Source of the DNA: Acaryochloris sp. CCMEE 5410
GTDB taxonomy: Bacteria > Cyanobacteriota > Cyanobacteriia > Thermosynechococcales > Thermosynechococcaceae
Length of the DNA: 64,000 nt
Direction of reading: 5' to 3'
Assembly: GCF_000238775.2 (NCBI RefSeq)
Contig: NZ_AFEJ02000001.1
Coordinates: 2,604,001-2,668,000, forward strand
Shown: one piece after another, positions 29,380 to 49,573 of the stretch
Layout of the letters: the number at the start of each line of letters is the position of its first letter
Position numbering within the stretch: the first letter of the stretch is position 1
Notes under the pieces: generated by a model
Told to the model about the DNA's origin: nothing
The model's input: the letters and a program-made list of their open reading frames with translations, nothing else
Database searches by the model: none
Program-made: the position numbers and the translations under genes

Positions 29380-29667
29380 GGCAGGAGATATGTTCTGAAA
29401 TAACGTCAGAGGATTGGGTCGAAAACCGTTAGCTCAGCAAAGCTTAATGTAATCAGTGAATCCAATACTGCAGAGTCGGAGCCAATAAGATATGGCTCAC
29501 TAGAGCTTAGTCGTCTCAATCCCCAAATAGATTGACCTCGATCACCCCCCTAAGAGTTAACTCAGATAGATATCAGGAAAATCTGTCCTGAAGTCAATAC
29601 TATTTCACTTTGTAAACTTTTACCGGAGTCATTGCTTGACTTTGATTACGACTTGTTAAGAGATAGA

Positions 29668-30771: not shown

Positions 30772-30908
30772 ATTTCTCTTTTATGCTTTTTCTCTAGGCT
30801 AAATTCGTTCAGGGAAGAGAGTGAAGCGATAAGCCTCAAATCAATTTCATCGGCCAATATTGAGCTTCGACATTAATATACGCTTCTCAGTTGCTTGTAA
30901 GTGACACA

Positions 30909-30943
30909 AAAGAGAGAGGATTGGTTCTCAATCCTCTCTCTTT
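30909..30943. terminator. Strong bidirectional terminator after desB
   Basis: Perfect 15-base arms (30909-30923 and 30929-30943) enclose a 5-base loop. The right arm ends in TTT followed by GCTTTT, and the left side offers AAA for the opposite strand. It sits between convergent desB and the 30997 gene, so it can serve both. Confidence 0.85.
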
Positions 30944-30996
30944 GCTTTTATATTCAGGATGTATCGTCTGGTCGTTGATACCAACAGGAAAGATTT

Positions 30997-31413
30997 CTAT
31001 TCGTTACACTGAAGCTGCTGAATTCTCACCCTCGCCGCCCGCTCTTTTTGCAATTCCTCGTAGGGAAGATTCAAAAGATATTTAGTGACCTCCTTTCCTT
31101 GATCAACAACACGAGTTGCTGCAACTAACTTACTGGTGATCAAGCGCTGTAGAGACGCAAATACTCGATTAATTTTTCCATATTTGGTATCGGCTATTAA
31201 CCATGTCATACGTTCTGCAATCTCATCTCGACTGAGAGGGTATAGACTTTCAAACAACACTCCTTTGACGGCTAAATCCAGTTGGGCTTTATAAGAAGAT
31301 TCCAGCAGACTACTCCTCGTCGTGGCAATAGGCTGATATTTTGAGTGTCTTTGTTCTGCTCTCCGTCTAGCTTGACAGCCCTTGGTCGATCGCTTGTATT
31401 GAATTGTGTCCAT
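30997..31413 (-). CDS. Hypothetical protein, basic, helical
   Basis: From the ATG at 31413 the product has 138 residues; a start six codons upstream is possible. The N-terminal 30 residues are strongly basic. The middle ('LYPLSRDEIAERMTWLIADTKYGKINRVFASLQRLITSKLV') resembles a winged-helix recognition segment, which would fit a small DNA-binding protein. I do not recognise the family. It converges on desB. Confidence 0.5.
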   Translation of the reverse strand: MDTIQYKRSTKGCQARRRAEQRHSKYQPIATTRSSLLESSYKAQLDLAVKGVLFESLYPLSRDEIAERMTWLIADTKYGKINRVFASLQRLITSKLVAATRVVDQGKEVTKYLLNLPYEELQKERAARVRIQQLQCNE

Positions 31414-31513
31414 TGCTATGTCTAACAACAACTAGATAATGTTTTCTTTAATGTATGACTTTTTCTAGCCCTGAGATAGCATAAACATTCGCAAAAACTC
31501 AACGAACGATTTG

Positions 31514-31699
31514 CTAAATCCTAAAAATTAGAGTGTTCTCCCCAACAGGGACTAAAGGCTTCTCAATGTCATAGATGATTGCGTCCTGTGCAACCACTAC
31601 TGATGCCACTTGATAACTGTTCTCTCTATTGTATCCGTGAATATACGGAGTGGCACCCCTCAGAGCGGACAATATAGACCCATCACCTTGCCACATCAC
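31514..31699 (-). CDS. Possible small hypothetical protein
   Basis: A 61-residue frame ending in 'KPLVPVGENTLIFRI'. There is no recognisable domain and no clear ribosome site. It lies in a stretch (31414-31945) with no other supported gene, and could be a chance frame. Confidence 0.22.
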   Translation of the reverse strand: MMWQGDGSILSALRGATPYIHGYNRENSYQVASVVVAQDAIIYDIEKPLVPVGENTLIFRI

Positions 31700-31945
31700 T
31701 CAAGATTTCAGTATTTTCACGGAGATAATTTTCTGGATTAAAACACCAGTAATTTCAAAAGGATCCGTATTCCTACATAGAACTCGTTTGAGGATTACGA
31801 CTAAAATGTCCTTATTGGAAAATATTTAGACAAAACTTTGTCATCTGATTACCTTTTTTTTCGGTTGCATTTAGGATTAGATGACTACAATTTGAGTCCT
31901 TTTGAATATCTTCAATAATCATCAAAACTAATCTGCCACTCTGCT

Positions 31946-32296
31946 ATGCCTCGCAAGCAACTCGGGAAAAAAGATCAGCTAATTATTAATATTGCAGCCC
32001 AAAAAATTGGCAGACGAATGAAGCAGCTACGGGCTCATTTGGGGTTGTCCCAAGTTCAAATCGCCAAGAATCTTTCTATCTCTGTCAGACAGTGGTCTGG
32101 CTGTGAGTGCGGTGATTATTTGCTAAATATAGATTTTTTAATTTTGCTCAACACCTATTATCAGGTGTCCATCGATTGGCTATTGACGGGTAAAGGCAAT
32201 ATGTTTATGGATGATACTAGTGAGACTGAGCAAAAAATTACCAGTCAAGAATTAGCTGAAGAGCTAAAAGTTCTAATCACGCGTTTAGAAGACTAA
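31946..32296 (+). CDS. XRE-family helix-turn-helix regulator
   Basis: The protein has 116 residues. The HTH spans about 22-78: 'IGRRMKQLRAHLGLSQVQIAKNLSISVRQWSGCECGDYLLN' followed by 'LNTYYQVSIDWLLTGKG', the classic Cro/cI layout with the 'WLLTGKG' end common in phage-type regulators. The C-terminus is a short acidic helix. No phage genes or obvious target are adjacent; it may regulate itself or the neighbouring hypotheticals. Confidence 0.85.
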   Translation: MPRKQLGKKDQLIINIAAQKIGRRMKQLRAHLGLSQVQIAKNLSISVRQWSGCECGDYLLNIDFLILLNTYYQVSIDWLLTGKGNMFMDDTSETEQKITSQELAEELKVLITRLED

Positions 32297-32747
32297 ACAG
32301 CTTCTGCCTGAACTCCTAGACTTACTGCCCAGTCCGATGATCGAAGTATCTTGATTTGAGTATTCTGCTTACTCTAGTAGCAGAGACTGAAGTGTTTCTA
32401 GCTCTATAGATGCCCAAAGCAAGAACATCAAATTTCAAGCAACAGGTGCATGGACAACCGTTTTAGTGAAACGCGGTTATGTTAAGTGACTATGACAATA
32501 GCCATGGGTCAGCTGGGGCAACCTTCTCCTTTTTGACATTAGAAATCATAATCCATGCCCTGGGAATGGGATGCATCTCACCCAGTTAGATCTAAAATCA
32601 AAACCATCAGATTAGATTTAGATATGGAAAGGGGGATGCCTGTCATTTGCTTTTCTATAGAAAGGTAAAGGTTGTGATTCTGCTGAAATGGTACATTGGC
32701 TAGAATTGAAGGATAGTGTTCGAGACAGCAGAGGTCGTAACACCCCA
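32297..32747. other. Gene-poor stretch
   Basis: I see no supported gene, RNA or strong hairpin in these 451 bases. The frames are short and low-scoring. Confidence 0.5.
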
Positions 32748-33203
32748 ATGGCTAATAATGGTACTGCCTATCTCCTTTGGTTTTCTCTACCTTTGGCATC
32801 TGTGGAATTCACCGATTCTACCTAGGCAAACCCGTTAGCGGCATTCTCTACTTTGTACCTTCGGGTTTCTGGGCATTGGTCAAGTGGTCGACCTTTCCTT
32901 ATTCCAGAGATGGTTGATCATAAAAATCTCAAGCAAAGATTGCTCTATAGTTCAGCAGATGTCACCACACAACCGACCATTGTCAGAGATGTCAGTACAT
33001 ACACACAAACGAGTCCTCCTTTGGATGTGCAAATTCTGAAGATTTGCCGAGATCAGCAGGGGGCCACTCTGAGTGATTGTGTGATTGCAACCGAAAAAAG
33101 TCCTGAAATGGTTAAATCCAAGGTCCAAGAACTGTGTTTAGCAGAACTATTGGTCGTTGGCAATCGTGAGTCCGATGGTGCCGTCATTTATAAGGCCGTC
33201 TAA
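32748..33203 (+). pseudogene. TM2-domain protein with winged-helix-like tail, three frame breaks
   Basis: The ATG is at 32748. Restoring one T at each of three T runs (near 32784, 32853 and 32900) gives a continuous 152-residue protein. It has a TM2 domain ('STFGICGIHRFYLGKPVSGI', then 'TFGFLGIGQVVDL', 'IPEMVDHKNLKQRL') and a C-terminal wHTH-like region ('DVQILKICRDQQGATLSDCV'). All three defects are single-base losses in T runs, so I treat this as an intact gene with sequence errors. Role unknown. Confidence 0.72.
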
Positions 33204-33242
33204 TCGCACTGTAAAATTAAGACCGCCCTGCACGAATAGTCC

Positions 33243-34020
33243 ATGCACCATCCCATTCCTCCCTTTGCGGATCTCCCTGCCCATCAACTCAATTCCATCA
33301 AGCTCATTGCCACCGATATGGATGGCACCCTCACCGTCGACGGTAAGTTCCCAGCCATTTTGGGTCAAGCCCTATGGGACTTACAAAAGAGCGGTTTTAC
33401 AGTTGTGATTGTGACGGGGCGATCGGCGGGTTGGGTCAGCGGCCTTGCCCATTATTTACCGATACAAGGTGCGATCGCAGAAAATGGCGGCCTTTTCTTT
33501 CAAGAACCCGACACTCCTGGCAAAGTACTTTCAGACATTCCGGGCCTCAAAGACCATCGTGCTCACTTAGCTAACACCTTTCGTCAACTCCAAACCCATT
33601 TCCCTCATCTACGGACCACAGCGGATAACGCCTTTAGAATCACGGATTGGACCTTTGATAATCCTGGCTTTGATCCGGCCGATTTGGAGCAGATGGCCAA
33701 CCTCTGCGCTACTGCAGGATTTGATTCACTTACAGTACGGTGCAGTGTCATATCAAACCCAAAGGCCAGAACAAGCAGGCAGGGCTCCTAACGGTCCTAG
33801 AACACCATTTACCGGAGCAATATAATTTAGACCAAATTTTGACGATCGGCGATAGTCCGAATGATCAAGACCTATTCGATTCTCAAGTTTTTCCGCACTC
33901 CGTCGGCGTTGCCAACTTATCTCACTACCTAGAGCAGATTGACCACCACCCCAAGCGATGACTCAAGCTGCTGAAGGGTTAGGATTTATCGAAATTACGC
34001 AACGATTGCTGATGTCTTAA
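33243..34020 (+). pseudogene. HAD-IIB-type phosphatase, two frame breaks
   Basis: The N-terminal 'LIATDMDGTLTVDGKFP' is the HAD DxD motif I, 'VIVTGRSAGWV' motif II, and 'IKPKGQNKQAG' plus 'ILTIGDSPNDQDLFD' motifs III/IV. Adding one T near 33730 and one G near 33955 joins the pieces into about 259 residues ending at the TAA at 34018-34020; 778 plus 2 bases is divisible by three, as required. HAD-IIB members act on sugar phosphates or nucleotides; the substrate is unknown. Confidence 0.8.
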
Positions 34021-34499
34021 TGCTAATTTCATCAGCGTCTTACAAATCTGTTTAAAACGGCTAAAGGGCTTGGCTTATTGCAACCAACCCTTAATCCTAT
34101 AGAAACCGAGAATGTATGTTTGCTCAGAATTGAAAAATAGATAGAGTTTACAGAAAACAACTAAAGTGGACATTAACAACAGCAACAGTTCTAAGAGGTA
34201 AGTCTTACATATCTTACTAGATAAGTGTTCTGGTCTTCAATTTTTCTTATAGAAAATGATTACCACAAATCGTAAGTTCTCAGGAAGAAGGTTGCTCTTC
34301 AGAACAGAGGTAGGAGGTACTGACGTGTTCCGGGTTACTTGTTAACTTTGACTTTTTGTACCTGGGTTTAATCTAGCATTAACCCCCAGGGCTGACTCAG
34401 GGATTTTACTAAAGTTCACTCTTATTCGCGGGGGTTAACAGAGTGAAATATATCAATAAATTAGATGGGTCAATGTCAGAATTTCCGTCCCTATAGTCA
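34021..34499. other. Gene-poor stretch between the HAD gene and menE
   Basis: No gene is supported here. An AGGAGG-like sequence near 34310 is not followed by a usable frame. Confidence 0.5.
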
Positions 34500-35932
34500 C
34501 TACTGATCAACCTGAAGTAGTTTCCTCATCTGAGATTGGTCGATTTTACCTTGAGGGTTACGGGGCAGCTGAGACCAGACATACCATTGCTTTGGTTGTT
34601 TAAACGGGCTGAGTTGATTCTTCAGACAAGTCTGCAATGCGATTAGGGAAAAGAGTCTGCTGCAGGAACCACAATGGCGGTAATGATTTGGCCCCAATCG
34701 GGATGGGGTTGGCCCAACACCGTCACATCTTTTACCATGCCTGTAGTTAAAATTAATTCTTCTATTTCTTCGGGAAAACATTCTCTCCACCAGAGATAAT
34801 CTTGCGACTTAAACGACCGACAATATGTAATTCTCTTGAGTCATTGAAATATCCCAAATCATCTGTGGAAAATTTGTGATAAGCGGCAAATAATGAGGGT
34901 AATACCCTTTACAAAGAGAGGTACATTTAATGACCACCTGTCCGATGTGATGGGCCAACATGCCCTGATGTTGCTGATGTTCAACGGTAATTGAGCGTGG
35001 GGCAAAACATGGCCATTGTGGGCTGCTCCGAGCAGGAATTGATCGGATCTAAGGTCGCCACTTGAGCCGCCGTTTCTGTCATGCCATAGGTTAAGGCTAA
35101 CCGCAAATGATGCTGACGCGCCGCCTGAAGTAAAGCGGGCCATGCCGGTGCACCCCCACCAAATGGTGTGAATCGGGCGAGCCACTGTAAACGAGGGCCG
35201 CCCTGTTGTAAGAGTCGCTGGAGTTGGGTGGAACGAGAGAGAGAAATAGGCATGGGTTGCTGAGATTGCGGATCCAGGAAAGCCGCAATGTTGGGCCTCA
35301 AGGAGGTCTTGGAAGAGAACAGTGGCGCGGGAGGAGGAGGAGTTTGCCGTATGTAAGGAGCGATCGCATAAACTGCATCAACCCACTAACGTGATACAGG
35401 GGTAACCAGCAGCAGGAATTGATGGCATCCAATTCACCACCGAAAATGACGTTGGCAGCCTTCCACCGAGGCAGTTAGAGTCTCCCAGTATGATCGCAAA
35501 TCGAACCTGCCCGATGAGCCCCCGGTAGGGACTAAATCCATCCCTTTTCTCTGGCTTAGCTGAGGCTGGTTTTGGGATATCTACCGGAGGCAACTGAGAG
35601 GCATCCCAAATGACATGGGGTTGAACTAATGACACACCTGTTGCCATTCAGAACGTTGCCAATGGGGATTCCCGAGAATACAGGACATTCACATAAACAC
35701 GCCGCCATCAATCCAGCTAAAAACTCTAGCGAATCAGACTGAACTAACAGGACTCTGGGATAGCCTCTCGCTCCATCACCGCTTGTAGCTCCCGTTGTCG
35801 TTGCTGAGTTCGCTCTAACCAGCGCTGATGATTTAGGCCCAGATCCAATCTTCCCTTGCCAATTGCTTGGGAGAACCCATAGTTAGCACTGGACGGCTTA
35901 ACTGGATCAAACGAGAACGAAGCGTTATTCAT
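34500..35932 (-). pseudogene. menE: o-Succinylbenzoate-CoA ligase, several frame breaks
   Basis: Pieces in three frames assemble into a ~477-residue acyl-adenylate ligase. In order: 'LGLNHQRWLERTQQRQREL', 'SGQVRFAI', 'TQLQRLLQQGGPRLQWLARF' with 'GGAPAWPALLQAARQHHLRL', 'ALTYGMTETAAQVATLDP', 'IISGGENVFPEEIEELILT' and 'LPRNPQGKIDQSQMRKLLQ'. The AMP-binding and C-terminal catalytic Lys motifs are those of MenE. It activates OSB in phylloquinone synthesis. The ATG at 35932 overlaps the menC stop by 8 bases. Loss of phylloquinone would damage photosystem I, so sequence error is the more likely cause. Confidence 0.82.
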
Positions 35933-36869
35933 CAGGGGACAACCAATGGCGAACACCAAACCCAATGGCTCGTTGGGGATTCGATAGTTCTGCTGCCAAT
36001 CTTAGACAGGCTTGCCGTCCCACCTCTGATTCAAAACAGAGGAGAAACGCATCAATCGGATGGGCTTGGCAAAACTGACGCAAGCGATGGGGATAACCAC
36101 AGATAGCGGGTTTAATCACAAAATACCGTTCCATCCTTGTTGCACACAGTACTGCAGCTGAGACAGAGTTGCCACCGACTCATCTAAGGCCATGGGGTTT
36201 GAAACTGCTGACTTAAGGACAACATGGCCGACAATTGCTTGGGGAGTAGCGGTTGCTCCAGATATTCAATCCTAAGAGTGTCCGTCACCTGATCACATAG
36301 CTTCAGCCAACGACAGACAGACTCATAGGTTAGTCACCATTAGCATCTAAGCGCAGCAAGGCTTGCGGTGGCAAAGCTTCAATCAGCTGCTGAAAATAGC
36401 CTGTTCCTGTTCGATGACATCCACCCCAATTTTCCACTTAAAGGTTCGATATCCCTGCTCCCATAGCTTTGAAGCGGCGGACAAGCAGGGCTTCCGGTGG
36501 GCAATAGGCCGCAAATCTCAGGAAAACAGGCGCTGATACGGATTTTGATGTATACTTCCACGCTGAACCCAATCCAAACTGGCAAGCCGGATAGCGATCT
36601 GGGATAGACAAGATGTGAGCGTCCGTTAGCTGTCGTGGCAGTTGCTGACAATAGGCCTGGGCTTGTTCCCAAGTCTCAGATCCAACCACGATAAAGGCGC
36701 AATTTCACCTTGGCCATATTGCCAGCATCATCCTCTAAAGTAACCACCAAACCTCGACGGATCGACCACTGCCCATACCTCGTTTGCAAGGGCTGTTGAA
36801 ACGATCGTTGATAGGTTTGATAGGAAATTCCATATTCTTGGCGCTGATCGCTTCACCTGTAGGTAGCAT
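35925..36869 (-). pseudogene. menC: o-Succinylbenzoate synthase, several frame breaks
   Basis: Reconstructed from three frames: 'SFQQPLQTRYGQWSIRRGLV' with 'YGQGEIAPL', 'GSETWEQAQAYCQQLPRQLT', 'LDANGD', 'LALDESVATLSQLQYCVQQGW', 'FVIKPAICGYPHRLRQF', 'SSVFESEVGRQACLRLAAEL' and 'RAIGFGVRHWL'. These are the enolase-superfamily barrel segments of cyanobacterial/plastid MenC. The start is uncertain (36840-36869). It precedes menE with an 8-base overlap, so the two are translationally coupled and serve the same pathway. Confidence 0.8.
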
Positions 36870-36976
36870 TGTTTTAATCACATGACAGATCGAACGGATC
36901 ACTGCACATTCTAGGGGTAGCTTCTATTGTGGGATGAAGGCTTCCTCATATTATTTCTCGACAGCCAGGTGGATGC

Positions 36977-38785
36977 ATGACGAATTCCGGTACCAATACT
37001 CCCCATGTGCAACCCTCAACCCCAACTTTACTGAATAACCGTTACCGGGTCATTAAGTCCTGGGTGATGGTGGCTTTGGCACCACCTTTTGGCAGAAGAC
37101 ACCCAAATGCCTTCCCGACGCCAATGCGTGATCAACAGTTAAAGCCCATTGACAATAATCCTCAGATCTATCATTGGTGAAGGATCGATTTCAGAGGGAA
37201 GCCGCTATCCTAGAGCGTTTGGGAGAAAGCCATGACCAATTCCCATGCTTTACGCTTTTTTAGAAGAGGCTGGTCAGTTTTACCTAGTAGAAGAGTGGGT
37301 GGCGGGTCAACCCTGACCCAAAATGCAGCACGGTCCCTCAGTGAGACGGAAGTGCGAGACATTTTGATCAGCTCTTGCCAGTTATCGACTATATTCACCA
37401 CAGCGGATTGTTCATCGAGATATTAGCCCGATAACATTATCTTGCGCCAAGAGGACGGCATACCAGCCTCATTGATTTTGGGGCCGTTTAAAGAAACCAT
37501 GAGTACCGTGGTGAATTCCCAGGGCAAACGAATCGCTCCATTGTGGTAGGCACCCCGGATATATGCCCATGGAACAACTGGCAGGACGCCCAGTCTACAG
37601 CAGCGATTTATATAGCTTAGGGCTCACGGCTATCTATCTCCTCACCCTTAAATCCCTCAGAACTCAAAACCGATCCGCAACAGGCGTTCTGCTATGGCAG
37701 CATTTAGTGCCTAATCTCAGCCCGGAGTTTGCTGCCACCCTGAGTCAAGCTATTCATCCTCAGCCCAATGAACGGTTTCTCAGTGCCGCCGCCATGATGA
37801 ATCATTTGGTGCTGCCAGCAACTCATGTTGTGGATGTTGCCCAAGATACTGCAAAGCCAGGCTCCCGAAATTCTCGCGAATCAAGACACCACTCCAGTGG
37901 GTGTAGAAGCACGGATATCGTTGCTCATACCTCCAACAGCCCTCGATTCCCTCCACCGAAGCGTCGGTTTCAGCCCCCCTGAGCCGGCTGTATCCGAGCC
38001 GACCCAAGCCGTTATTCCCAACATCCATCCGTACCGCCCACCATCACCCAACCGGTTTCCAGAATGGCAAAAGCCATCCTCACAGGCGGTGTCATTGGCA
38101 TATTCGTATTGGTGAGTGCCGTTCTCTTGCGGGGTCAGGTTTCGGAGCTACTCTCTCGCAACTCGCCTTCACCTACCGTGGAACAGAGCGTTCCACCTCT
38201 GGTAAGCCGTGAGTACCTCTCCCGAGCCTTCCACACCCGCTAGTGACAGTACGAGTCAGGTGATCGACCTGCTCCGCCGCCTCCAGTCGAGATTGCATTA
38301 CCCCTAATGCCGATCAAACCAACGCCCGCATTACAGGAGACCCTGGTTCCAAAATATCCGGTCTGGCCCAGGAACAAACTATGCTCAACCCATATTGCTT
38401 CCAGGCGATCGGATCCGATTATTACGAGCGATCGCGATCAGGGTGGCTTCCTCTGGCATAACGTTTACTTTCCTGAATCTCAGGCCCAGGATGGATTGCA
38501 GCGCAGTTAGTCAAGCAGATCAAGCCGCGCCTCCTCTCCTGAGCCTACGCCACCCCCAAACCGACGTCTTCAAATACCACGCAACCCTTGTCGGCGTCCA
38601 GAAGTAAAATATTCGAACGGGGCCAGGAACCAATTCCCGACTAAACATATGGCTTACCTGGCGATCGCGTCCGCATTGTCGGTCACGTAAGATGTCGGTG
38701 GTTACCTCTGGTATGAAGTCTTGTTCCCTCAGTCGGGGTTCGGGGCTGGATTGCCGCTCACTCATTCAACGAGATTAGACACTAA
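36977..38785 (+). pseudogene. Ser/Thr protein kinase with SH3b repeats, many frame breaks
   Basis: Reassembled order: kinase N-lobe ('LLNNRYRVIK', then 'LGDGGFGTTF'), 'HRDI/FIRDISPDNIIL', 'LIDFGAV', activation-loop 'GTPGYMPMEQLAGRPVYSSD' and 'LGLTAIYLLT', then a linker, one membrane helix ('MAKAILTGGVIGIFVLVSAV') and two SH3b units ('NIRSGPGTNY', later 'KNIRTGPGTN'-like). I resolved three missing bases in the N-lobe: G after 37057, T in 37087-37090, A in 37133-37135. This is a membrane kinase with an external SH3b module. The end at 38785 is inferred. Confidence 0.72.
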
Positions 38786-38839
38786 ACGTCTATTCTCAAT
38801 TACTGTGGTTACTGTCTATCATGGGGCAGCAATAGGCTT

Positions 38840-39629
38840 ATGAAGGGTTCCAAAAATTTTCGGCCAGTTCCAGTTTGTGGTGATCAGCCTTTTGACCACA
38901 GCGGTGATTGTCTGGCTGGCGGCTAGCCTTCAACTGGTCCCCGTGATTCACCTGTCTCGCAGAGCAGTCACCCCACCCTCTGCTCATCTCCTGGCGAACA
39001 TCCCAACCATTGCCCCTGCAACAGCCGCCCCCATCTCCCTGTATGAAGCTTGCCCTCCATCTCGAATGCTCCCTCTCCAGCTAGGCTCCAGCAACTCGGC
39101 CGCTTCTGCACCTAACAATTACTATGGTCATCTCTCCTATGCTGAGAATGAAGATAACCGACTGGTAAACGTTGGAGAGTTTGTGCGAGGGACGTATCGT
39201 CGGTCTGAGTATTTGGATCAAGAAGCAGCGGCAGCCTTTACCCAATTGGTTAATGCCGCTGCTGATGCCAATCTCACGCTTCAACCTATCTCTGGGTTTC
39301 GCTCAGTGAATGACCAAAAAGAGCTGTTCGTAAACAAGTGCAAAGCTAGGGAGTGTAGAAGCAGCCACCAAGCTTAGTGCTCCGCCTGGATTTAGTGAGC
39401 ATCACACCGGATATGCGATCGATATTGGCGATCGCAACCAGCCGGAAAAGATCTCAAGGTGGCTTTTGAAGACACACGGCCTATGAGTGGTTAACCATAA
39501 TGCCAGGAACTATGGATTTGAACTCTCATTCCCCGAATAACGCCCAGGAGTTAACTTTGAGCCTTGGCATTGGCGATATATTGGACTTCAAGGGCGGCAG
39601 TACAGTTTGCGAGTGCTCGCAATCTTTAA
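38840..39629 (+). pseudogene. VanY/M15-type D-Ala-D-Ala carboxypeptidase, frame breaks
   Basis: Segments in three frames give ~263 residues: an N-terminal anchor ('VVISLLTTAVIVWLAASLQL'), 'GEFVRGTYRRSEYLDQEAA', 'LQPISGFRSVNDQKELF', 'SEHHTGYAIDIGDRN' and 'FEPWHWRYIGS'. The two zinc-binding motifs (H..GYAID; E.WHW) are intact. It trims the terminal D-Ala of peptidoglycan stem peptides. The stop at 39627-39629 follows the family's usual short tail. Confidence 0.75.
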
Positions 39630-39989
39630 TTTTCCTTGGCAGTCAGGATCGTTGTCTATCAAATTTTCTGTGCATTAATACAACTATAAATGACTGGAAC
39701 CCAATCATTGCTGTGCGATTGGATAGCTGTAGGGTGGTGATCAAGCAGCGTTGATCTATATGGAGGTAGCTTGAGAAAGCTATGCAAGCAGCGTTGATAG
39801 CAACACAGGCATTGTAAAATGATCACAATCAGAACTAGAGAAAATAGATAATTACGATACCAACACCTAGCTGACGAGCTGTAAATTGCTGCATACAAGA
39901 TGTAACTTGTTAAGTTAGCAGTTGCCATTCTAATGCAGAAGCCAGGTGCAGACATACACCATTGCTTCTCTGATAGACTCACAGTGCTC

Positions 39990-40199
39990 TAATGGTTGGT
40001 GTGTTCGGCTTGAAATCAATTACCTGTCTCAATCGGATGGGGAAGGATGACATGTCGCGCTTTTGGATTGAGAGTTCATTGCTTCGCTATAAGCAGCGGA
40101 GATTTACCCTCTCTAGATTCAGACAGTGGCCGCTCAATCTCATGCCAATCAGGAAAAATGACAGCCAATATCCAACGATGAAAGCTGGCTGTTAATTTA
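39990..40199 (+). mobile_element. Possible degenerate transposase 3' fragment (IS4-like)
   Basis: The frame 'KDDMSRFWIESS' plus, one frame over, 'ADYKSGG'-like and 'FTLSRFR' residues resembles the C-terminal 'IE.FF.D.KS.GF.L' region of IS4-type transposases. It is short, broken and without terminal repeats, so this is tentative. The rest of the 39630-40450 gap shows nothing else I can support. Confidence 0.28.
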
Positions 40200-40450
40200 A
40201 GCACTATTTTTTTCACTAAGACATGTTAATTTATAAAAATTAAACTATCTATTTTAACTTGTTTCTTCGTCAAACTAGATGACATTAAGATCAAAGTGCT
40301 CAGCGGTTGAGCGCAAAATTTAGATCCGCATCCAGCGGTTATACAAGCAGTCTGTTTTCTTGAGGCAAACAGATACCAAAGCGATTGATTTGTCATCAAT
40401 CGTTCATTTTGTGCATCAATTAATTGACGGTTAGTCTAGCAATTTAGGAG

Positions 40451-41421
40451 GTGATCAGTAGGTTTATCACGCTACCAAATATTTATGCTCAGCGACAGCT
40501 TGATGGTCTTCTCTACAATATTTCCAGTGATCATGATGAAATATTGGATAATTATTATGAAGCTATAGAAGCCCAACGCGTATTCAAAGCAGCATTATCT
40601 AAGCAGTTGAGTATAGTATGTCCCTTGTTAGAACGCTATCAAGAAATCTATTGGGGATACTGATTTCACTCGACTCGTGAAATTGAGCTATTTCAATTGC
40701 TGTTCTGTAACCTACCTGGAATTTAGGCTACGCCTGCCGTAAGCTTGGCTATCCATCATTATTTAGCAGGTCGGCAAAAGTATTATTGGGAAGAGGATTA
40801 ACGATACGTCATCCTAAATTTATTAGTTTGGGGAATCGTGTGGCAATTGATGATGGTGTATTACTCGATGCCAGTGGTGCCGGAGAAAGGCATTACCATC
40901 GAAGACGATGTCATCATTTCACGCAACTGTGTGATCCAAGGAAAAACAGCAACTGTTTCGATTGGTAAGAACACCGATATTGGCTGTAATACCATCCTGT
41001 CATCGGGCGGGGGATCAGATTGGAAATTTTGACCTCATTGGAGGCAATTGCTACATTGGCGGGGCCGTTACTTGAATGATAGGCTCGATGTCCCTATGTT
41101 AGAGCAGGGGTGTATACACGTGGCCCAGTCATTATTGAAGATGATGTTTGGCTAGGCGCTGGCACTACTGTACTAGACGGGGTCAAGATTGGTAAAGGCT
41201 GCATTGTAGGAGCAGGTGCAGTGGTCACCAAAGATTTACCCGCATATGCGATCGCAGCTGGCGTACCCGCTAAAGTGATCAAAATGCGGGAAGGTATCAG
41301 TCTTGATGAGCCTCGAGAGGTGAGATCAAAAATCATTCCGGACCTGCTTTTAAGAGGAGTGAATTGGAACTGTCTACTCTTTCATAGCCACTATTTGTGT
41401 TGCAATGACCCACCACCCTGA
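40451..41421 (+). pseudogene. Hexapeptide-repeat acyltransferase, frame breaks
   Basis: The beta-helix part is clear: 'LLGRGLTIRHPKFISLGNRV', 'ITIEDDVIISRNCVIQGKTA', 'IGKNTDIGCNTILSSGGG', '[20 protein letters not shown]' and '[20 protein letters not shown]'. This is the pattern of cell-surface sugar O-acetyltransferases. The N-terminal region 'STREIELFQLLFCNLPG' is in the frame of the GTG at 40451 but after an in-frame TGA, so the start is uncertain (an ATG at 40618 is the alternative). A strong hairpin follows at 41511. Confidence 0.68.
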
Positions 41422-41510
41422 ATACTTCTTGTCTCCTCAAGGTTACGGACGCACTCACCCCATGACGGCTAACACGGAAGATTCAGTGTTCTGCAACCTC
41501 GCAGTACATA

Positions 41511-41552
41511 CGATGAAACCTGGCCGAATTATATCTCGACCAGGTTTCATCG
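41511..41552. terminator. Strong hairpin between convergent genes
   Basis: Perfect 13-base arms (41511-41523 and 41540-41552), extended after one mismatch by three further pairs. It separates the plus-strand acyltransferase from the minus-strand DUF3352 gene, which ends 18 bases beyond it. U-tracts are weak, but the position fits a shared terminator. Confidence 0.6.
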
Positions 41553-41569
41553 CAATTCTAAGGTGACGC

Positions 41570-43195
41570 TTATGATTTTGGCTTAAGCGCTAAGAGGACA
41601 TCTCCTGTGTAAGTAGACTTATCCATTTGGGTGCTAGCAACACCAATGCCCCGAATGGATTTGAGAACCGCTTCAACTTCAGGCGTAATTAGACCTTGAC
41701 TGGTAATGGCTGGATTGCTCAAAATCACCTTGTTTGCTTCATCCATATTGACGAAGAAATAACCAGAATTGGACTGGGTAAGGTTCGAGTGACAGACTTA
41801 AAGATCTCACTCTGATCCAACGTTTTATCCGGTTTGGCCATGACCTTAATGATGGGGTCACCAATGGCAAAGAATACGGTTTCATTCAATCCAACCATGA
41901 CCAGCTAGGGTCTCTTTGGTGGGTGGAAACTGCCATTGGGTCACATCAACATTGCCAATTTTTTTATTGACTGGGACATTGCTTTGCTTAACCAAGTCAT
42001 CCAGTTTGGCAAAGGTTGCCTCAGCTTTGGCACGATCGCTCGTCTTGAACACTAAGGTTCCGCCAAAACCGACAGGTTGCAAGACGCCTTGATTGCCTGG
42101 AATAAGAGCTAATCCCACTTCTTTATCCATCCAGCCAATAATGTCTTTATCTAAATCCAGCTGGGTGGTTTGACGAATCTGCTGTCGGACTTCATCTAAG
42201 CCTTCTTAAATTCAGGCACACTGTCTAGCTGTTGGAGGGCGTAATTCCACTGACTGCTCAGATTACCAGCATTGGCCGATAACAGGGTATTGGCCGGAAT
42301 TGGGAAATAATTTTGCCTGGAACTGGCTTGAATTCCCACTTAAAGGAATCGGGATTGACCTTGGTTACCGCTCGGAACCGAACGCCTTCATTGTCAATGC
42401 CCATGCCAACTGACACCGATTTAATTGATCCAGTTGATCTTTCAGCTGAGGAGGAAGTGGATTACTGGGATTAAACGCTGCCGCCTGGGTAATCAATTTC
42501 CCATAATTGGGGATGAAGATTTGAGCGACGGGGTTCCATCTTCAGGCTTTCTTCCAGGATCTTCCGAGTCTCACCATCGGAGGCTAAGGACGGATCACCC
42601 TTCGATGAATCAATGGCTTTTTTGACCACATCTTGATTGTCAGACATAGCCAGGTGATTCTCGAGAATCGCCACATAGCTTGGAGAACCCGAAGCATCTA
42701 TTTCTAAAATCTTGACGCCTTTATGGTCAGTCTCTTTGACCTCTAAATCTTCCTTGTCTTTCATCTTATTGCAAAGTTTAAGACTTCTACTTTGTCTTTA
42801 ATGCCAATGACCATCAACATACTGGGGGCGGGTGTGTCCTCGCTGGCAGGAACCGCCGCAAACATCACACTACCCAACCAAGGCTTGATATCTTTATCGT
42901 AATCCAGCTTATCTTTTGCTAACTCTTTTTGATATCAGCAGTCATCTCATCGAACCACCAAACACCAGATCTTGAGCTTCGGGAGTACCAAAATCTTTCA
43001 GTTTCTCCCAAGAATCCGACGTAATATCAACATAGCCTGCCATCCAGGCTTCATCGGGCACAATTTTTGCACTGGCGACTGGACTGGTTCCTTCACGGGC
43101 AGGAATAACCTTTAGGTAAAAATATGCAGCAATCCCCCCGATCGCGACTGCACCCGCGATAATTCCAGGAACAATCAGTTTCCATTTGGTGCCAT
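41570..43195 (-). pseudogene. DUF3352 membrane protein, frame breaks
   Basis: GAGGAG seven bases before the ATG at 43195 sets the start. After one missing A in the AAA run, the protein reads 'KWKLIVPGIIAGAVAIGGIA', a membrane anchor. Several frames then carry 'DEAWMAGYVDITSDSWEKLK', 'AILENHLAMSDNQDVVKKAI', 'VGFGGTLVFKTSDRAKAEAT' and an end 'DVLLALKPKS'. The ~542-residue length matches the cyanobacterial DUF3352 family. Function unknown. Confidence 0.75.
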
Positions 43196-43779
43196 TAAAT
43201 ATCTCCTCAAAAAAGAAATTAGATCGCGTGGTGAAACAGAAAAACCGATTATCTGAAGCCAAAAAAGATTTGAATCGAACCTTTTGATGATGGTTAAAAA
43301 GCTCAATTGTAAGCGCATCATGGGTTGTTTAGTCAATGATTGCCAAGGTTGGCACTGATTCCCTAAATTCCCGAAGAGGTTTCTATACCGGCGTTGAAAG
43401 CGCTAGCTGATTCACTGAAACCAAGTTCGCATCTAATATTCCCTGAATTGGGCCACAACTAGCACTTATCAGAAAAAATGGCCACGAATTTCCTAGGTTA
43501 AGACGGTTGAGACTATCTCTTCATGCACCCATTGAGACGCCCACAATGTGCTTCATCTTCGTCTTCATTAAAACTAGCGATTTTTCTGATTAATCTACTG
43601 GGTAATGTCAAATCTTCATTGGCACCATTTCGAATGTTTGCACAATCCTACCCTCATCAGCGGTCTTAGCAGGTGATCCTAAGCAGAGATCTAGAGTGAT
43701 AGTGATCATTGGCAATCCCACTGCCTGAATCACTTTTAGGGCAATGTACACTTCATTCTAAAGACGTAACGCCATAAAA

Positions 43780-43807
43780 AATACCCTCGCATCTTGTCGA
43801 GGGTATT
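43780..43807 (-). terminator. Rho-independent terminator of the 43876 gene
   Basis: Ten-base perfect arms (AATACCCTCG at 43780-43789, CGAGGGTATT at 43798-43807) with an 8-base loop, followed on the minus strand by a T-rich run (about TTTTTTAT). The rest of the gap 43196-43779 holds no gene I can support. Confidence 0.8.
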
Positions 43808-43875
43808 GCATCAGAAGAGGAACTCTAACCTAACGATGGAAAATCCGTTGGGCAGAACTAGAGTTGAGAAAAAGC

Positions 43876-44010
43876 TTAGCGTTTGGCCAACTCTCCATGA
43901 ACAGGGCGTCCATTTTCCTTTAATGTTTCGAGCCAAGCATCGGCATCATCCAGCTTGTAGCCGGAAAAGCGAATCGTCGTTTGTTGATCTGTGATGGTTC
44001 GCACTGTCAT
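43876..44010 (-). CDS. Small conserved-looking protein, 44 residues
   Basis: This short gene starts MTVRTITDQQTTIRFSGYKL and ends in 'HGELAKR'. TAGGAG lies 8-9 bases before the ATG, and a textbook terminator follows the stop by about 70 bases. This complete transcription unit makes it a real gene despite its size. The composition suggests a soluble beta-alpha mini-protein. I do not recognise a family. Confidence 0.7.
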   Translation of the reverse strand: MTVRTITDQQTTIRFSGYKLDDADAWLETLKENGRPVHGELAKR

Positions 44011-44183
44011 GAAAATAACTCCTAAAGGTGTAGGCCAAAAAATCCGAACACGATTTTCCCATGCCTATCTAAGGTTCAGCGGGTTTACTAAGGCTGGAGA
44101 CATGGAATTCTATATTTCTTCGAAGACTGCAAAATTTTGCAACAAAGCCCTCGAAAGCCAGTAGATTCTTCAAGCAGAGAGAT

Positions 44184-47100
44184 CTAACCCAATAGCTCCA
44201 TTAACTGCTGCTCTGATAATTGCGGAATACTATATTCTCAGCCTTTTCAGCTTGTTGCCTGGATCTTTGCCGACGACGACATAGCTGGTTTTAGAACTGG
44301 GGTGGGTATTGATAGTACCGCCTGCTTCCTGAATGATTTTTTCACTTGTTCATAACTGAGCTGGGCCAGTTTGCCAGTGATAACAAAACTTTGTCCCGCG
44401 AGGGGAGGCCAGTTGCGATTCAGGGACAACTGCTGGGACCGTGGCCACAGGATCATCTGAGGCAGACATCTGGAATTGTTGTTCAAGCTGTTGCTTTTCT
44501 TGGGTGAGTTTTTCAACCTGTTGCTCAAAATGCGAGACGACGTCTCTGGCCATTTTCATCGCTTTTCCAGCTCTACCTTGTCTTTTCAGGATTTTGACTT
44601 GGGTTTCTAGGGTCGTGATCTGTTGGTCGGCCTCTTTCATGGCTGCCATCATCTGTTCGGCAAGGCATCCCTAAGTCTGGTAGCTCAGCAGCCTGTTGTT
44701 CTAAGGTTTGGAGTTGCTGTTGTAGGGTCGTGATTTAGCCGTGGCAGTGTCGTAGTTGTGCTGAAGCTGATCGCGATCTGTCGTCAGATCTTGAAGCTGC
44801 TGTTCTAGTTCCACGGATGATGTCGCCGATTGCAGATCCACCACCTGTTGTTCTAAGGTTTGGAGTTGCGATCGCAACCCTAGTTTCTCTTCCTCAGCTT
44901 GCGATAGCTCTGCTTTCAGATCCTGCTGAGCCTGCGTTAACTGGTCCATTTCTGCCGTTATGGTGGTGGCCTGCTGGAGGTCGGCTTCGAGCTGAGCGTT
45001 CGCTTGGGTCAGGGATTGGACCTGCTCAGGTAGGGACTCTAGCGCTTTCAGTTGGGCGGTCAGGGTTTGGATGGTGGTTTCTGCCGTCTGTTGGCTTGGG
45101 TGATGCGATCGCATTCTGCCTTCGCTGCCGCCAACTCTGTCTCCAAAGCTGCAGTATCCGAGGCCTGTTCTAGAGAATCTTGTAGAGTCTGATTCTGCTC
45201 TGTTAGTGCTGCGAGCTGTTGCTCTAGACTGGCCTTTTCAGTCTGGGCAGCTTGTAAAGCTGTCTGCAAAGGGATGGGGGCGGCTTCAGCCGCTTGTAAG
45301 GCTGCCGTTAAACGCTTCTGCTCCGCCTTCACTGCTGCCAGCTCTGTCTCCAACGCAGAAGTATCCGAGGCTTGATTGACCGCAATTGTAATTCCTGATT
45401 CTGCTGGGTGAGTGCTGTCAGCTGTTGCTCCAGCTGAGTTTGTTCCGTTTGAGCTTCCTGTAAGGCATCCTGCAAAGGGATAGGGGCGGCTTCAGCGACT
45501 CTGAGGGCAGATGCTAATTGAGTCTTCTCCGCTTCCAGGCCTGTACCCGTTGTTCTAGGGTGATGACCTGCTGCTGCTGAACCTGTAAATCTTGCTGAGT
45601 TTGGGTCTGTTCCTGAATCAGGGTATTGAGCTGCCGTTCCAGGTCTTGCGCTTGAGTTTCGGCACCTTGTAATACGGACTCCAGAGTTTGTCGCTGTTGT
45701 TCTAAGTCCGTAATCTGCTGTTGCAAAGGAGGAAGATGGCCTTGATATTCCGCCACCTGCTGATTAAGGGTCTCCCGTTCTTGTTGCAGGGTTTGCAGTT
45801 GGGATTCCAAAGCAGCAATGGTTTTGGCCTGGTCGTTGGTAACTTCACCTTGCTCAGTCTCTAAGCGTTGCTGTTGCTCCAGAGTCTGAAGTTGCTGACG
45901 TAGGGTCGTCAATGCTGTTTGTGAGTCTGACAGTTCCGCCGATAGGATTTGATTGGTTTGAGTCAGGGCTTCAAGATCTGTGCTGGTGGGTTGTGCCTCT
46001 TGAGCGGTTTCCAAATCTGAGATTTGCTGGCGCAGGTTGGTAATCAGTTCTTGAGCATCAGTTAGCTCCGTGGTGAGCTGCTGCTGATTGGTAGTAAGTT
46101 CCGTAATCAGGCTGGAATCTGCCGTTTGGGTTTGCTCTAAACTCGTCTCTAATTCCTGCTGTTGCTGAGTCAAGGATGCAATCTGCTGCTGTAGCTCAGT
46201 GGCGTTCGATTGAGCGGTTTGCAGGGTAGTCACAAGGGACTCTTTCTCTTGGGCTAGGTCCTGCAACTGTTGTTGTTGCTGTTGATTTCTGGATTGGGCA
46301 GCTTGCAGGGCTTGTTCGAGTTCCTGTAAGGCTTGGGATTGCTCCGGTGGAGCTGAGGCGACCTGGTTCAGCAGAGCCTGATTATTTGGGTCAGGGTCTC
46401 CAGATTTTGCTGAAGAGTCTGGATTTGAGCATGGGCATCTTGGATCCGCTGCCAGCTCTGTGTTGAAGTCTGTGTCTTGGGTCTCTAAAGCAGACAAGGA
46501 GGTCTGAGCTGTTTCATAGTCCTCTGCAACTGCCGTTGTAGATCTTTGGCCGTGGCCAGTCGTCCGGTTAAATCGTCAATTTCCTGTTTTGCTCGGCAAC
46601 CAGAGACTCCAGGGTTTGTTTTTCTTGACGAAGGGTAGAGAGATCCGTCTGCGCATGATGGAGCCCTTCTAGCTCTGCTGTTTAGCTGAGCATGGCTTGC
46701 TCCAACTGCTGATGCGTTTGAGTCAGAGCAGCAAGCTGCTGAACCGTTTCAGCCTGGGTGGTGGCTAGCTGGTCATGGGTGGCCGTTAGGGTCTCTAATC
46801 GCTGGGTTAGAGTGGCTTTCTCCTGCTGGACAGCAACTCGATCATCCTCTAGGCTCTGGTTTTGGGTGGTGAGGGTCGCAATTTGATCTTGGAGTACAGC
46901 CACTTCCGTCGCTAAGTTCTGACGCTGACGATCCCGTTGAGACTGCTGTTGCAGCTGATTTTCTAAAGTTTTTTGCGTCGTGGTCAGGCTGGCCACTTGT
47001 TGTTCAAGGCGTTGAATCGTTGCCTGGGCTTGCGTCACCTGAGATTGGTCTTGCTGTTGCGTCTGAGTCAACTGGGCAAGCTGCTGTTCCAGTTGGGCCT

Positions 47101-47705
47101 TAGCTTGGGTAGCGGCAGCGGCTGTCTGCTCTGCTGCCATTACCTTGGCCTGCAAGGGCTGTTGTGCTTGGGTTAGGGTATCCACTTGGAGCTGTAAGCC
47201 CCGCATTTTAGATTGAGCCTGGCGCAGATCCACTTCCGCTTGCGTCTTCGCAGCAGCGAGAGTGTCTAATTCCGTAGTCGTAGCAGCCCGCTCATCCAAT
47301 TCAGCCTGCAGCTGTTGGCATTTCGCTTTGAGTCTCTAGTTCAGTTCTAGGGTCTTCTGCTGCTGGTCTTGGGCTTGTTTCTCGTCTGCCCAAGCGCGTT
47401 GCTGCTGTTGCAGCTGGCTGATCTGCTGCTTTAACTCGTCAACGCTCTGTTCTTGAGCCTCCACCACCTGTTTAGCCTTGGCAAGGGCCGTGGTTAACGT
47501 CTCATTATCGGTTTGAAGGGTTTGTTGCTCGGTCTGCAGACGGGTTTGGTCAGCTGTTAGCAACCGTTTTGTTCTTCAGAGGCAGATGTGAGTTGCTGCT
47601 GCCGCTGCCGTTGACGCAGGGTATCGACGGTAGCTGTCCCAATAGGAGCGCACCAACGCTTTCTAGAACCAAACGAAGATCAAGAATACTAGACAATTCA
47701 GGCAT
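44184..47705 (-). pseudogene. Giant coiled-coil protein with C-terminal BRCT domain, many frame breaks
   Basis: The ATG at 47705 ('MPELSSILDLRLVLESVGAL') opens a ~1170-residue protein. It is almost wholly Gln/Glu/Leu/Thr-rich coiled coil ('QTLQQERETLNQQVAEYQ' style). The last ~90 residues are a BRCT domain, 'LAGQSFVITGKLAQLSYEQV' then 'DPGNKLK..' and 'GIPQLSEQQLMELLG', closely like the BRCT end of bacterial NAD-dependent DNA ligase. At least eight frame changes are visible. The DNA repeats are those of the coiled coil, not CRISPR or satellite units. Confidence 0.7.
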
Positions 47706-47900
47706 GGATGTAACGATGACTTTGGGGATGATGACAATCAGGAAACCAGTTCCTTCTCTTTATCCTGACGTTCTCCGCTGAGAAATGCTAGGACATTCGC
47801 TACAAAGACCTAAGTACTGGTTTAAACAGAAGCAACATACTCGCGGTAACCAGCTCCAACTAGCGCTACCGATATGGCCATAACTGCCATCTGCAGGTAA

Positions 47901-49573
47901 TAGGGTTTGCTGAAAAAGTAAATTGAGCTATTCCTGGCATCAAATCGTACAATCAACCCAGTTGTGACGGCCAGGGCCATATTCCTTCACTGGCCCTAGA
48001 AAGCCCCAGGCAGCCCTGGCAGCTCCATAACGCTTTCCACACCAGCAATCCCACCCAAAATGAATGATAAAAGGTGGCGGAGCCACCGCTCTAGATTCAT
48101 CACCAAGAACGTGATAGCAATCGCACTAGCAGCCGTATCCGCTAACTTCGCCATCACTCGATTCAAGCCAAATCTTCGCTTGGCCTGCCCAAACTTGCCC
48201 TCAATTGGACTCTCACCTTTTCGTCCTCCCGTGCTTGTTGCTTGAGTTGGCCCTGCACCTGGGGTCTTGTGAGTCTTCCTAACGGTGGTCCACTCAATCG
48301 GATACCTCGAGCTTTACACCATCGTCGATTAGCTCGGGTTCGATAGATTGGTCGGCATGGACTGAGAGAGGATAATGGCCAAAGCGACGATGAAAAGCTT
48401 CCACTTGATATTGAAGATGCTGGATTCATTGAACGCATCCCAGCTTAAACGTTCCAGAAACACACATCCGTTGACACAACTGAGGGATAGCTTGGCCCCA
48501 ACTCAACAGGTACTCCAGCTTTGCCTCGGACCATCGGTCGGACATGAGGCTGAGTGAGGCTGACAATACGGTCATCTACTCGACGCACGTGCTGTTGATA
48601 CATCCACTCTTGCTGTCGAAAGACTTCATGAATCACCAGCAACAGACGGTACTGTCGCCGGGACAGTCGGGACAGAGACGCTCCTAAAGCTATCAATCCA
48701 TCAATGTGGGCTAGATTCCGACGCACATAGCCCAACTGCTGACGAATCCCTTACGAATCAGCTTGCGACTCGGTTGACGTTCTTGGCAATGGCCAGATAA
48801 GCTTTGCGGGCCTTTGGCGGTAGGTGCGAGGTTTGCCCTTGAGAGACAGCATGACTTGAGCATATAAAGCATCAAGGATGGCTTCACTCGCTTTGCGGGC
48901 ATCATTGAGCAGATCTAAGTCTGTCGGATAGCGAATATCGGCTGGCGCACAGGTCGCGTCTATCAACAATTGGCCCTGGTTGGGAGGGCAGGAGGCTCAT
49001 CTTCGTCATCTTCAGGAGAAGGAGATGACTCAGGGGACATCACAACAGGAGAACCTCAGATGCGAGCACTGATTCCACGACTGCGTCGTTGACTGAGTCA
49101 GTAGCTCTAGATTCAACCGTTGGCGAAAGTGAACCAGCATGGAGGCATCAAACGGAGCACTCTCTCGATATTCACTAAACCCAGAAAGTACTGCAAGTAG
49201 GGTTCTCTCGAATCTGTTCTACGGTCTCTGCATCGGATACACCCAGTTTCTCTTTGATGATTAAGGTCCCTAAGGCCACACGAAAGGGTTTGGCAGGTGC
49301 CCCCATGGTCTGACTGAATTGCTCTGCATACTCTGACTCAAAGCTCTCCCAAGGAATCAGCTCGGCGAGTTGACCCAGCGATTCTCTTCTGATAGTTTGC
49401 CTCCGAAGGGCAAGTAGAAGTCTTAAAGGACAGTTGACCGGGGATGGACGACGATACATTGGGGTGCATGTGCAAAGGTTTGAGTATTTGAACGATTTCC
49501 TGCACTTCTCAAGGGCGCTCAACACTTGGATACACTGCAAATATTCAACCTTAGACTTTCGAAGCAAGCCCTA
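47901..49573. mobile_element. Insertion sequence, IS5/IS1182-like, ~1.67 kb
   Basis: Imperfect terminal inverted repeats match at 15 of 19 positions. The left end starts TAGGGTTTGCT at 47901 and the right end, read inward, TAGGGCTTGCT from 49573. One transposase gene lies inside on the minus strand. No clear target duplication is seen. The gap to the right (49574-49878) shows nothing else. Confidence 0.75.
47996..49459 (-). pseudogene. IS5/IS1182-family transposase, frame breaks
   Basis: The ATG at 49459 begins 'MYRRPSPVNCPF'. Segments 'QLAELIPWESFESEYAEQFS', 'FRVALGTLIIKEKLGVSDAE', 'LLIDATCAPADIRYPTDLDL', 'IVSLTQPHVRPMVRGKAG', 'IYRTRANRRWCKARGIRLSG' and 'ITFLVMNLERWLRHLLSFIL' are those of a DDE transposase of this group. 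They lie in different frames. The stop at 47996 falls just inside the left terminal repeat. Confidence 0.8.

Follow-up and report, generated by a model that had tools for sequence, protein, structure and literature searches.

The plant plastid protein MFP1 has an N-terminal membrane anchor followed by an extended coiled coil, which is believed to lie on the stromal side (PMC10801857); it has been proposed as an anchor of nucleoids to thylakoids (PMC4154389) and was later reported to set the site of starch granule initiation (PMC10801857). Among the coiled-coil-rich proteins of cyanobacteria, Syc2039 has a predicted N-terminal transmembrane domain (PMC7002697). As for BRCT domains, the 5'-phosphate site of yeast Rfc1 is formed by Thr166, Gly167, Arg174 and Lys209, with Lys208 also in contact, and this BRCT binds DNA (PMC9359705). 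LigA-type BRCTs contribute to the binding of double-stranded DNA (PMC10504179), and XRCC1 provides a precedent for a BRCT with a DNA-binding face other than the pocket (PMC6334254).

Here, we analysed a gene within a stretch of 64,000 nucleotides from Acaryochloris sp. CCMEE 5410 (hereafter the window), which encodes a very long coiled coil capped by a BRCT domain (coil-BRCT protein). It resembles MFP1 in joining a probable N-terminal anchor to a long coil, and the hydropathy, charge pattern and heptads of its family fit an MFP1-like anatomy with putative membrane insertion. This is an analogy only, drawn between descriptions and not sequences, and MFP1 differs in having a Tat signal and a transit peptide, with no BRCT mentioned for it in the accessible parts of the two sources (PMC10801857, PMC4154389). 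The likeness to Syc2039 and other coiled-coil-rich proteins (cyanobacterial, rich in coil and, in Syc2039, with an N-terminal segment) is again one of descriptions rather than of sequences, and the word BRCT is absent from the main text of the survey of such proteins (PMC7002697). No matching Pfam, NCBIfam or PADLOC model describes the whole protein. The preliminary description of the locus knew of no described bacterial protein of this form, and likewise we found none in open-access full text among the matches listed, a body of literature outside which most subscription journals lie; the accessible part of a BRCT review (PMC10386641) contains no such protein either.

In the window, the gene is split across three minus-strand frames (Table 1). 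A DNA search that included the own genome retrieved a second, 99% identical copy close to where this contig ends (C1:4497148-4500697), which is a single ORF of 1187 aa on the plus strand (L023:9149-12712) with coil and BRCT in one frame. The surrounding stretch is duplicated as well: in reversed orientation, it aligns with the terminal 21 kb of contig C1, exactly up to the final base. Over these 21 kb, BLASTN reported 18 mismatches and 309 gap openings, whereas MAFFT counted 288 indel events and 71 mismatches; of these indels, 243 involve a single base, and the window copy shows 234 as losses and 54 as gains. As many as 248 of the 288 indels lie within runs of at least two equal bases, which hold only 48% of all bases; the coil-BRCT gene itself carries 24 indels and 4 substitutions relative to the intact copy (MAFFT). 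Such a profile suggests uncorrected long reads rather than gene decay, the frameshifts being most likely sequencing errors, and the predominance of indels in equal-base runs over mismatches makes a true pseudogene at this locus unlikely. Since the duplicate starts beside an IS5-family transposase, its probable origin is a misjoined assembly or a repeat left unpolished, and the broken genes within it are better read from the contig end. The transposase may have caused a misjoin. In the intact copy there is no stop between coil and BRCT, and the outcome of two separate genes that the preliminary description had envisaged did not occur. That description had placed one very long coiled-coil protein with a BRCT cap at 44184-47705, close to the mapped gene, and both points hold for the intact copy; it missed the N-terminal hydrophobic segment and the resemblance of the frameshifts to sequencing error in a duplicated stretch.

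Table 1. Positions of the coil-BRCT gene, its parts and the duplicated stretch in the window
Feature	Position	Strand	Remark
Coil-BRCT gene, copy broken by indels	44170..47705	-	Mapped from intact copy
Probable membrane anchor, a hydrophobic N-terminal segment (aa 4-22)	47640..47696	-	Kyte-Doolittle 1.62
Coiled-coil rod, aa 36-1086	44470..47601	-	Heptad period 3.50; limits chosen by the authors
Conserved coil tail module, EKAMKMARDVVSHFEQQV	44467..44616	-	Profile match aa 1037-1076, drawn to coil end 1087
Coil-to-BRCT linker, aa 1088-1107	44409..44466	-	
BRCT domain, aa 1108-1180	44193..44408	-	Pfam profile
Duplicate of the contig end, apparently unpolished	28698..49573	.	Corresponds to C1:4495251-4516345, reverse orientation
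IS5-family transposase bordering the duplicate, outside the system	47940..49512	-	Intact copy L023:7313-8911

The anatomy of one gene, a heptad coil and a BRCT is firm. In the protein of the window genome, the coil of about 1,000 residues consists of 23% Q, 15% L, 14% A, 13% T and 10% E, so that the earlier label of a Gln/Glu-rich coil fits for Gln and less so for Glu. Its hydrophobic periodicity peaks at 3.50 residues with a power of 0.99, compared with 0.31 in one shuffle and 0.36 in the best of five. The same peak was found in 24 of 29 family coils and a peak of 3.45-3.55 in the other five, and the periodicity exceeded the best of five shuffles in all 29, barely so in G344 (0.59 vs 0.55). 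At 0.1485 nm per residue, rods of about 51-152 nm are predicted across the family. Beyond the BRCT, Pfam matches to the window genome's protein were of coil type only.

A conserved tail module with the pattern LE-x-QV ... AMKMAK-x-VV ... lies directly before the linker. Its profile also matches near the N-terminus in 13 of the 23 members of what we term the main group (E<1e-4, start residue 43-57), and such an N-terminal match is absent from the window genome's protein and its four genus relatives (G001-G004). Weaker matches occur along many coils, and coils shuffled as whole heptads gave none; six of the seven members of the second group, f31, also had none. The idea that the same module stands at both rod ends holds only partly, strong matches at both ends being confined to 6/23 main-group members and seven more having one near the N-terminus alone; in the six, the paired modules (aa ~45-90 and before the linker) are possible sites of end-specific dimerisation or docking. 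Across the family, the residues just ahead of the BRCT comprise on average 11% Pro and 17% Asp+Glu, with Pro in a fixed stretch spanning 0% (G167) to 23%; thus, the linker is not uniform, and the label Pro-rich fails for some members.

A segment of 19 residues with a mean hydropathy of at least 1.3 is present near the N-terminus in 26 of the 27 members that have one, the sole failure being G347, whose start codon was probably set a few codons too far in; a value of at least 1.6 is reached by 16, and the other 11 remain below this usual threshold. In the same 26 members the charge after the segment is more positive than before it; in the window genome's protein a basic RQRQRQ follows a few residues behind. 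Among 293 neighbouring ORFs with a length of 150 aa or more, 27 combine such a segment (at least 1.3) with this charge pattern, a contrast that is somewhat favoured by the choice of start codons, which for members were those nearest upstream of the hydrophobic stretch and for neighbours the first start. According to the positive-inside rule, the more positive flank of a membrane segment is the cytoplasmic side, which would place coil and BRCT in the cytoplasm. Insertion of the N-terminus into a membrane is therefore probable as judged from hydropathy and charge, and this membrane could be either the plasma or the thylakoid membrane. The window protein's own segment contains Asp, Arg and Glu, so that monotopic or amphipathic binding is possible.

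The preliminary description had suggested a search for the same domain pair in other cyanobacteria, where we indeed found it. In a profile search with coil tail and BRCT, 11 of the 29 genomes from the same taxonomic family proved to have this architecture, and at least 30 members from six families were present among 388 genomes of the class, including the own genome and these 11; since at most nine candidates per genome were scored, among the matches listed, absences are soft and members may have been missed. A single frame covers coil and BRCT in 29 of these members, and only in a draft genome (G019) do the two lie in different frames. Two members run off contig ends (G017 and G364) and G019 is a fragment, which sets the N-terminal counts at 27 of 30 and that of periodicity at 29 of 30; the 27 members with an N-terminus are 527-1207 aa long. 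One genome whose coil-BRCT gene was not resolved (G235) was left out, and three likely further members (G367, G311 and G259) stand outside the 30. Seven f31 loci (L264, L266, L268, L269, L270, L272 and L273) form a shorter coil-BRCT subgroup, with 527-641 aa in the seven read.

In a pattern scan of all bacteria, 80 of at least 378 confirmed loci comprised three coil-BRCT loci, all cyanobacterial, 76 LigAs and one ligase piece at a contig edge (L119). The three, found on GTDB contigs of Acaryochloris sp. IP29b_bin.176 (G004), Thermosynechococcus sp. WC_1 (G017) and Petrachloros mirabilis ULC683 (G015), belong to the 30 and are not additional members. A survey of the phylum at E<=1e-28 yielded six genomes out of 386, each belonging to the same class, with the out-of-class share of the 386 not given. 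The distribution of the family within cyanobacteria is patchy as far as these profile searches go, and divergent members may exist outside cyanobacteria. An origin from plasmids was not supported, none of 38 matching plasmid records covering 80% of the query of coil tail plus BRCT. The same holds for viruses: a viral scan gave 56 IMG/VR loci (L149-L204), which are ligases with a C-terminal BRCT, 19 of them classed and all 19 being LigA.

The BRCT domain (PF00533) of the window genome's protein scored 41.9 bits against a cut-off of 21.3, and this cut-off was passed in all 10 proteins scanned (the own and nine further members). The nearest solved relatives are the BRCT of LigA (PDB 1l7b, E 3e-14), as the resemblance to the end of LigA noted previously would suggest, and then the BRCTs of RFC1 (PDB 2ebu and 2k6g). 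Structural models were of little help. When the last 170 residues of the Acaryochloris protein were modelled with AF2, the BRCT had a pLDDT of about 46-73, and with this model Foldseek returned no match at E<=0.001 (the best row was an RRM domain), and a full-length single-sequence model of the Petrachloros protein (mean pLDDT 55) showed helix over most of 31-793 and an unresolved BRCT. As the models give no support for a BRCT fold, the assignment rests on sequence profiles.

The protein itself is not a LigA. The NCBIfam LigA models match only its C-terminal part and below cut-off (64.2 vs 369 bits and 59.2 vs 444 bits), and no adenylation, OB, zinc-finger or HhH domains precede the BRCT, whereas the true LigA of this genome is encoded separately, on contig C2 (771.9 bits vs a cut-off of 369). 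The coil-BRCT protein also lacks the AAA+ clamp-loader part of RFC1. Similarity to the rods of SMC, Rad50 and crescentin is of the generic coiled-coil kind, and the protein is without an ATPase head; SMC_prok_B (99 vs 567 bits) and Rad50 (63.6 vs 700) stayed below cut-off with their best stretches in the coil. PADLOC matches of the window genome's protein to the defence proteins JetC and LmuB were likewise coil-only, at most 49 bits, with no best stretch reaching the BRCT, and on these matches a defence system was rejected.

To place the BRCT, we reconstructed a tree from 86 columns of the 30 family BRCTs and 49 of 97 LigA BRCTs, the 97 being top matches and not a random sample (78 from bacterial genomes including the own, 19 from viral contigs). 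All 30 family BRCTs fell on one side of a branch with a support of 100/98, in a tree whose 86 columns give little resolution, whose root is not fixed and whose bootstrap is not fully settled. An enclosing branch (96/95) additionally holds 25 LigA BRCTs, 22 from cyanobacterial records and three from viral contigs, with the other 24 LigAs outside. It is likely, judging from this topology, that the BRCT was captured once from a cyanobacterial LigA. In the best tree, the main group did not form a single clade, and forcing it together was not rejected (AU p 0.243).

The complete pocket of Thr, Gly, Arg and Lys was present in all 97 LigA BRCTs and in none of the 30 family members, where Thr, Gly and Arg were placed by ungapped spacing and the equation of the Lys of G-x-K with K208/K209 is our own assignment. 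In the main group (n=23), Thr is found in 22, Gly in 23, Arg in none (Tyr in 13, Phe in three, others in seven) and Lys in 23, and in the f31 group (n=7), Thr in none and Gly, Arg and Lys in all seven. The f31 subgroup thus keeps the pocket Arg and loses Thr, and the main group does the reverse. Gly and the pocket Lys are retained in 30/30, as in the RFC1 N-terminal BRCT, and every member has lost Arg (yeast 174), Thr (yeast 166) or both (G167), which sets the family apart from both LigA and RFC1. A BRCT of the Rfc1/LigA type that binds 5' phosphate was accordingly rejected as a description of the family, none of the 30 keeping all four residues. The mean net charge of the BRCT is +2.6 in the main group, +5.9 in the f31 group and +0.8 in LigA, with overlapping ranges (0 to +5 in the main group, -3 to +6 in LigA). 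We interpret the altered pocket and the raised mean charge as a change of ligand, away from 5'-phosphate ends and perhaps towards another nucleic acid or a protein. Taken as a whole, the family adds a bacterial BRCT architecture of apparently single origin: a DNA-repair domain with a remodelled ligand pocket, carried by a rod that is probably anchored in a membrane.

We give a rough probability of 0.45 to the reading that the gene encodes a membrane tether whose BRCT most likely binds nucleic acid, holding the nucleoid or DNA-bound complexes near the membrane. Dimerisation, DNA binding, membrane insertion and the biological role are what we infer here. The N-terminal hydrophobic helix would hold the protein in the membrane with its C-terminus in the cytoplasm, and the heptad coil, probably a parallel dimer of about 50-150 nm, would act as a spacer. 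The linker would present a BRCT descended from that of a cyanobacterial LigA, which most likely binds nucleic acid independently of free 5' phosphates and might thereby keep the nucleoid, or complexes bound to DNA, near the membrane. The intact ORF, the N-terminal segment with its charge pattern, the heptads, the BRCT score, the single clade and the basic BRCT speak for this reading, and so does the DNA binding of the Rfc1 and LigA-type BRCTs mentioned above. Since the pocket is incomplete in 30/30, DNA binding cannot be assumed by mere analogy with Rfc1 or LigA, and this counts against the tether, together with the overlapping charges, the Asp, Arg and Glu in the window protein's own segment, the 11/27 segments below 1.6, the choice of start codons, the AlphaFold models unusable for the BRCT and the lack of a chromosome-related neighbour across families. 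On balance, tethering of DNA is plausible from the sequence features, with tethering of protein as a close rival; if the chromosome is tethered, the anchor would probably make a membrane the site. Possible, though less likely than not, is a stronger version in which a ligase BRCT, captured once and with its pocket changed, was put on a membrane rod of 50-150 nm dedicated to tying the nucleoid to the plasma or thylakoid membrane. If true, the protein would parallel, in bacteria, the nucleoid anchors proposed for plastids. To our knowledge, how cyanobacterial chromosomes are positioned relative to thylakoids is still open, and the coil-BRCT gene offers a concrete entry point to this question.

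It is quite possible that the altered BRCT instead binds a protein, phosphorylated or not, and that the coil spaces or gathers a complex at the membrane in the manner of MFP1, which assembles starch-initiation proteins at thylakoids. Proteins are frequent ligands of eukaryotic BRCTs (PMC9359705, PMC10386641), every family member has an altered pocket, and MFP1 itself, first proposed as a nucleoid anchor (PMC4154389), was afterwards tied to the site of starch granule initiation (PMC10801857). On the other hand, the BRCT is on average more basic than that of LigA, a better fit to nucleic acid, and no partner gene is conserved across families.

The preliminary description had also proposed a chromosome-tethering or damage-associated scaffold. 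The scaffold- or tether-like anatomy agrees with the first part, and the link to damage is weakened by the altered pocket, in view of which the protein is more likely to tether DNA or a protein to a membrane than to sense 5' ends or damage. We regard as improbable a sensor at the membrane whose BRCT recognises 5'-phosphorylated nicks or ends as Rfc1 does: LigA and RFC1 BRCTs are its closest solved relatives and Gly and Lys persist throughout the family, but the full set of four residues that all the LigA BRCTs have is found in no member, Arg being gone from the entire main group and Thr from all of f31.

There is similarly little prospect that the protein is an intermediate-filament-like cytoskeletal element, in which the coil polymerises and the BRCT serves as a cap or bundling domain. 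Coiled-coil-rich filament formers are known in cyanobacteria (PMC7002697), and weak coil-level similarity to the crescentin rod (Rod_CreS) appeared in 6 of the 10 proteins scanned, but at 17-38 bits against a cut-off of 100, a level that many unrelated coil families reach; crescentin itself was rejected for the window genome's protein (22.2 bits). Moreover, an N-terminal membrane anchor speaks against free filaments, as has been argued for Syc2039 (PMC7002697). Finally, a pseudogene or two separate genes, as the broken frames of the window copy and the separate frames of coil and BRCT in the draft relative G019 might suggest, is very improbable as an explanation and refuted for the family by the intact copy in the same genome and the uninterrupted frame of coil and BRCT in 28 further genomes (G017 and G364 being cut N-terminally by a contig end).

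With regard to the gene neighbourhood, no partner gene was conserved across families in 30 loci (G019 excluded, G235 included), nor did any neighbour conserved across families in these loci hint at chromosome biology. Common neighbours occur mainly within genera, such as chemotaxis genes in the Acaryochloris relatives and succinate-dehydrogenase-like genes, so named by sequence reading, in the genus g99. Around the intact copy, the order of chemotaxis genes, a DUF2817 gene and the coil-BRCT gene is the same as in the relative G001, and chemotaxis genes are also located near the coil-BRCT gene in G002 and G003. In the window genome, a DUF3352 gene adjoins the coil-BRCT gene (L023:13825-15309, at about 41590-43061 of the window).
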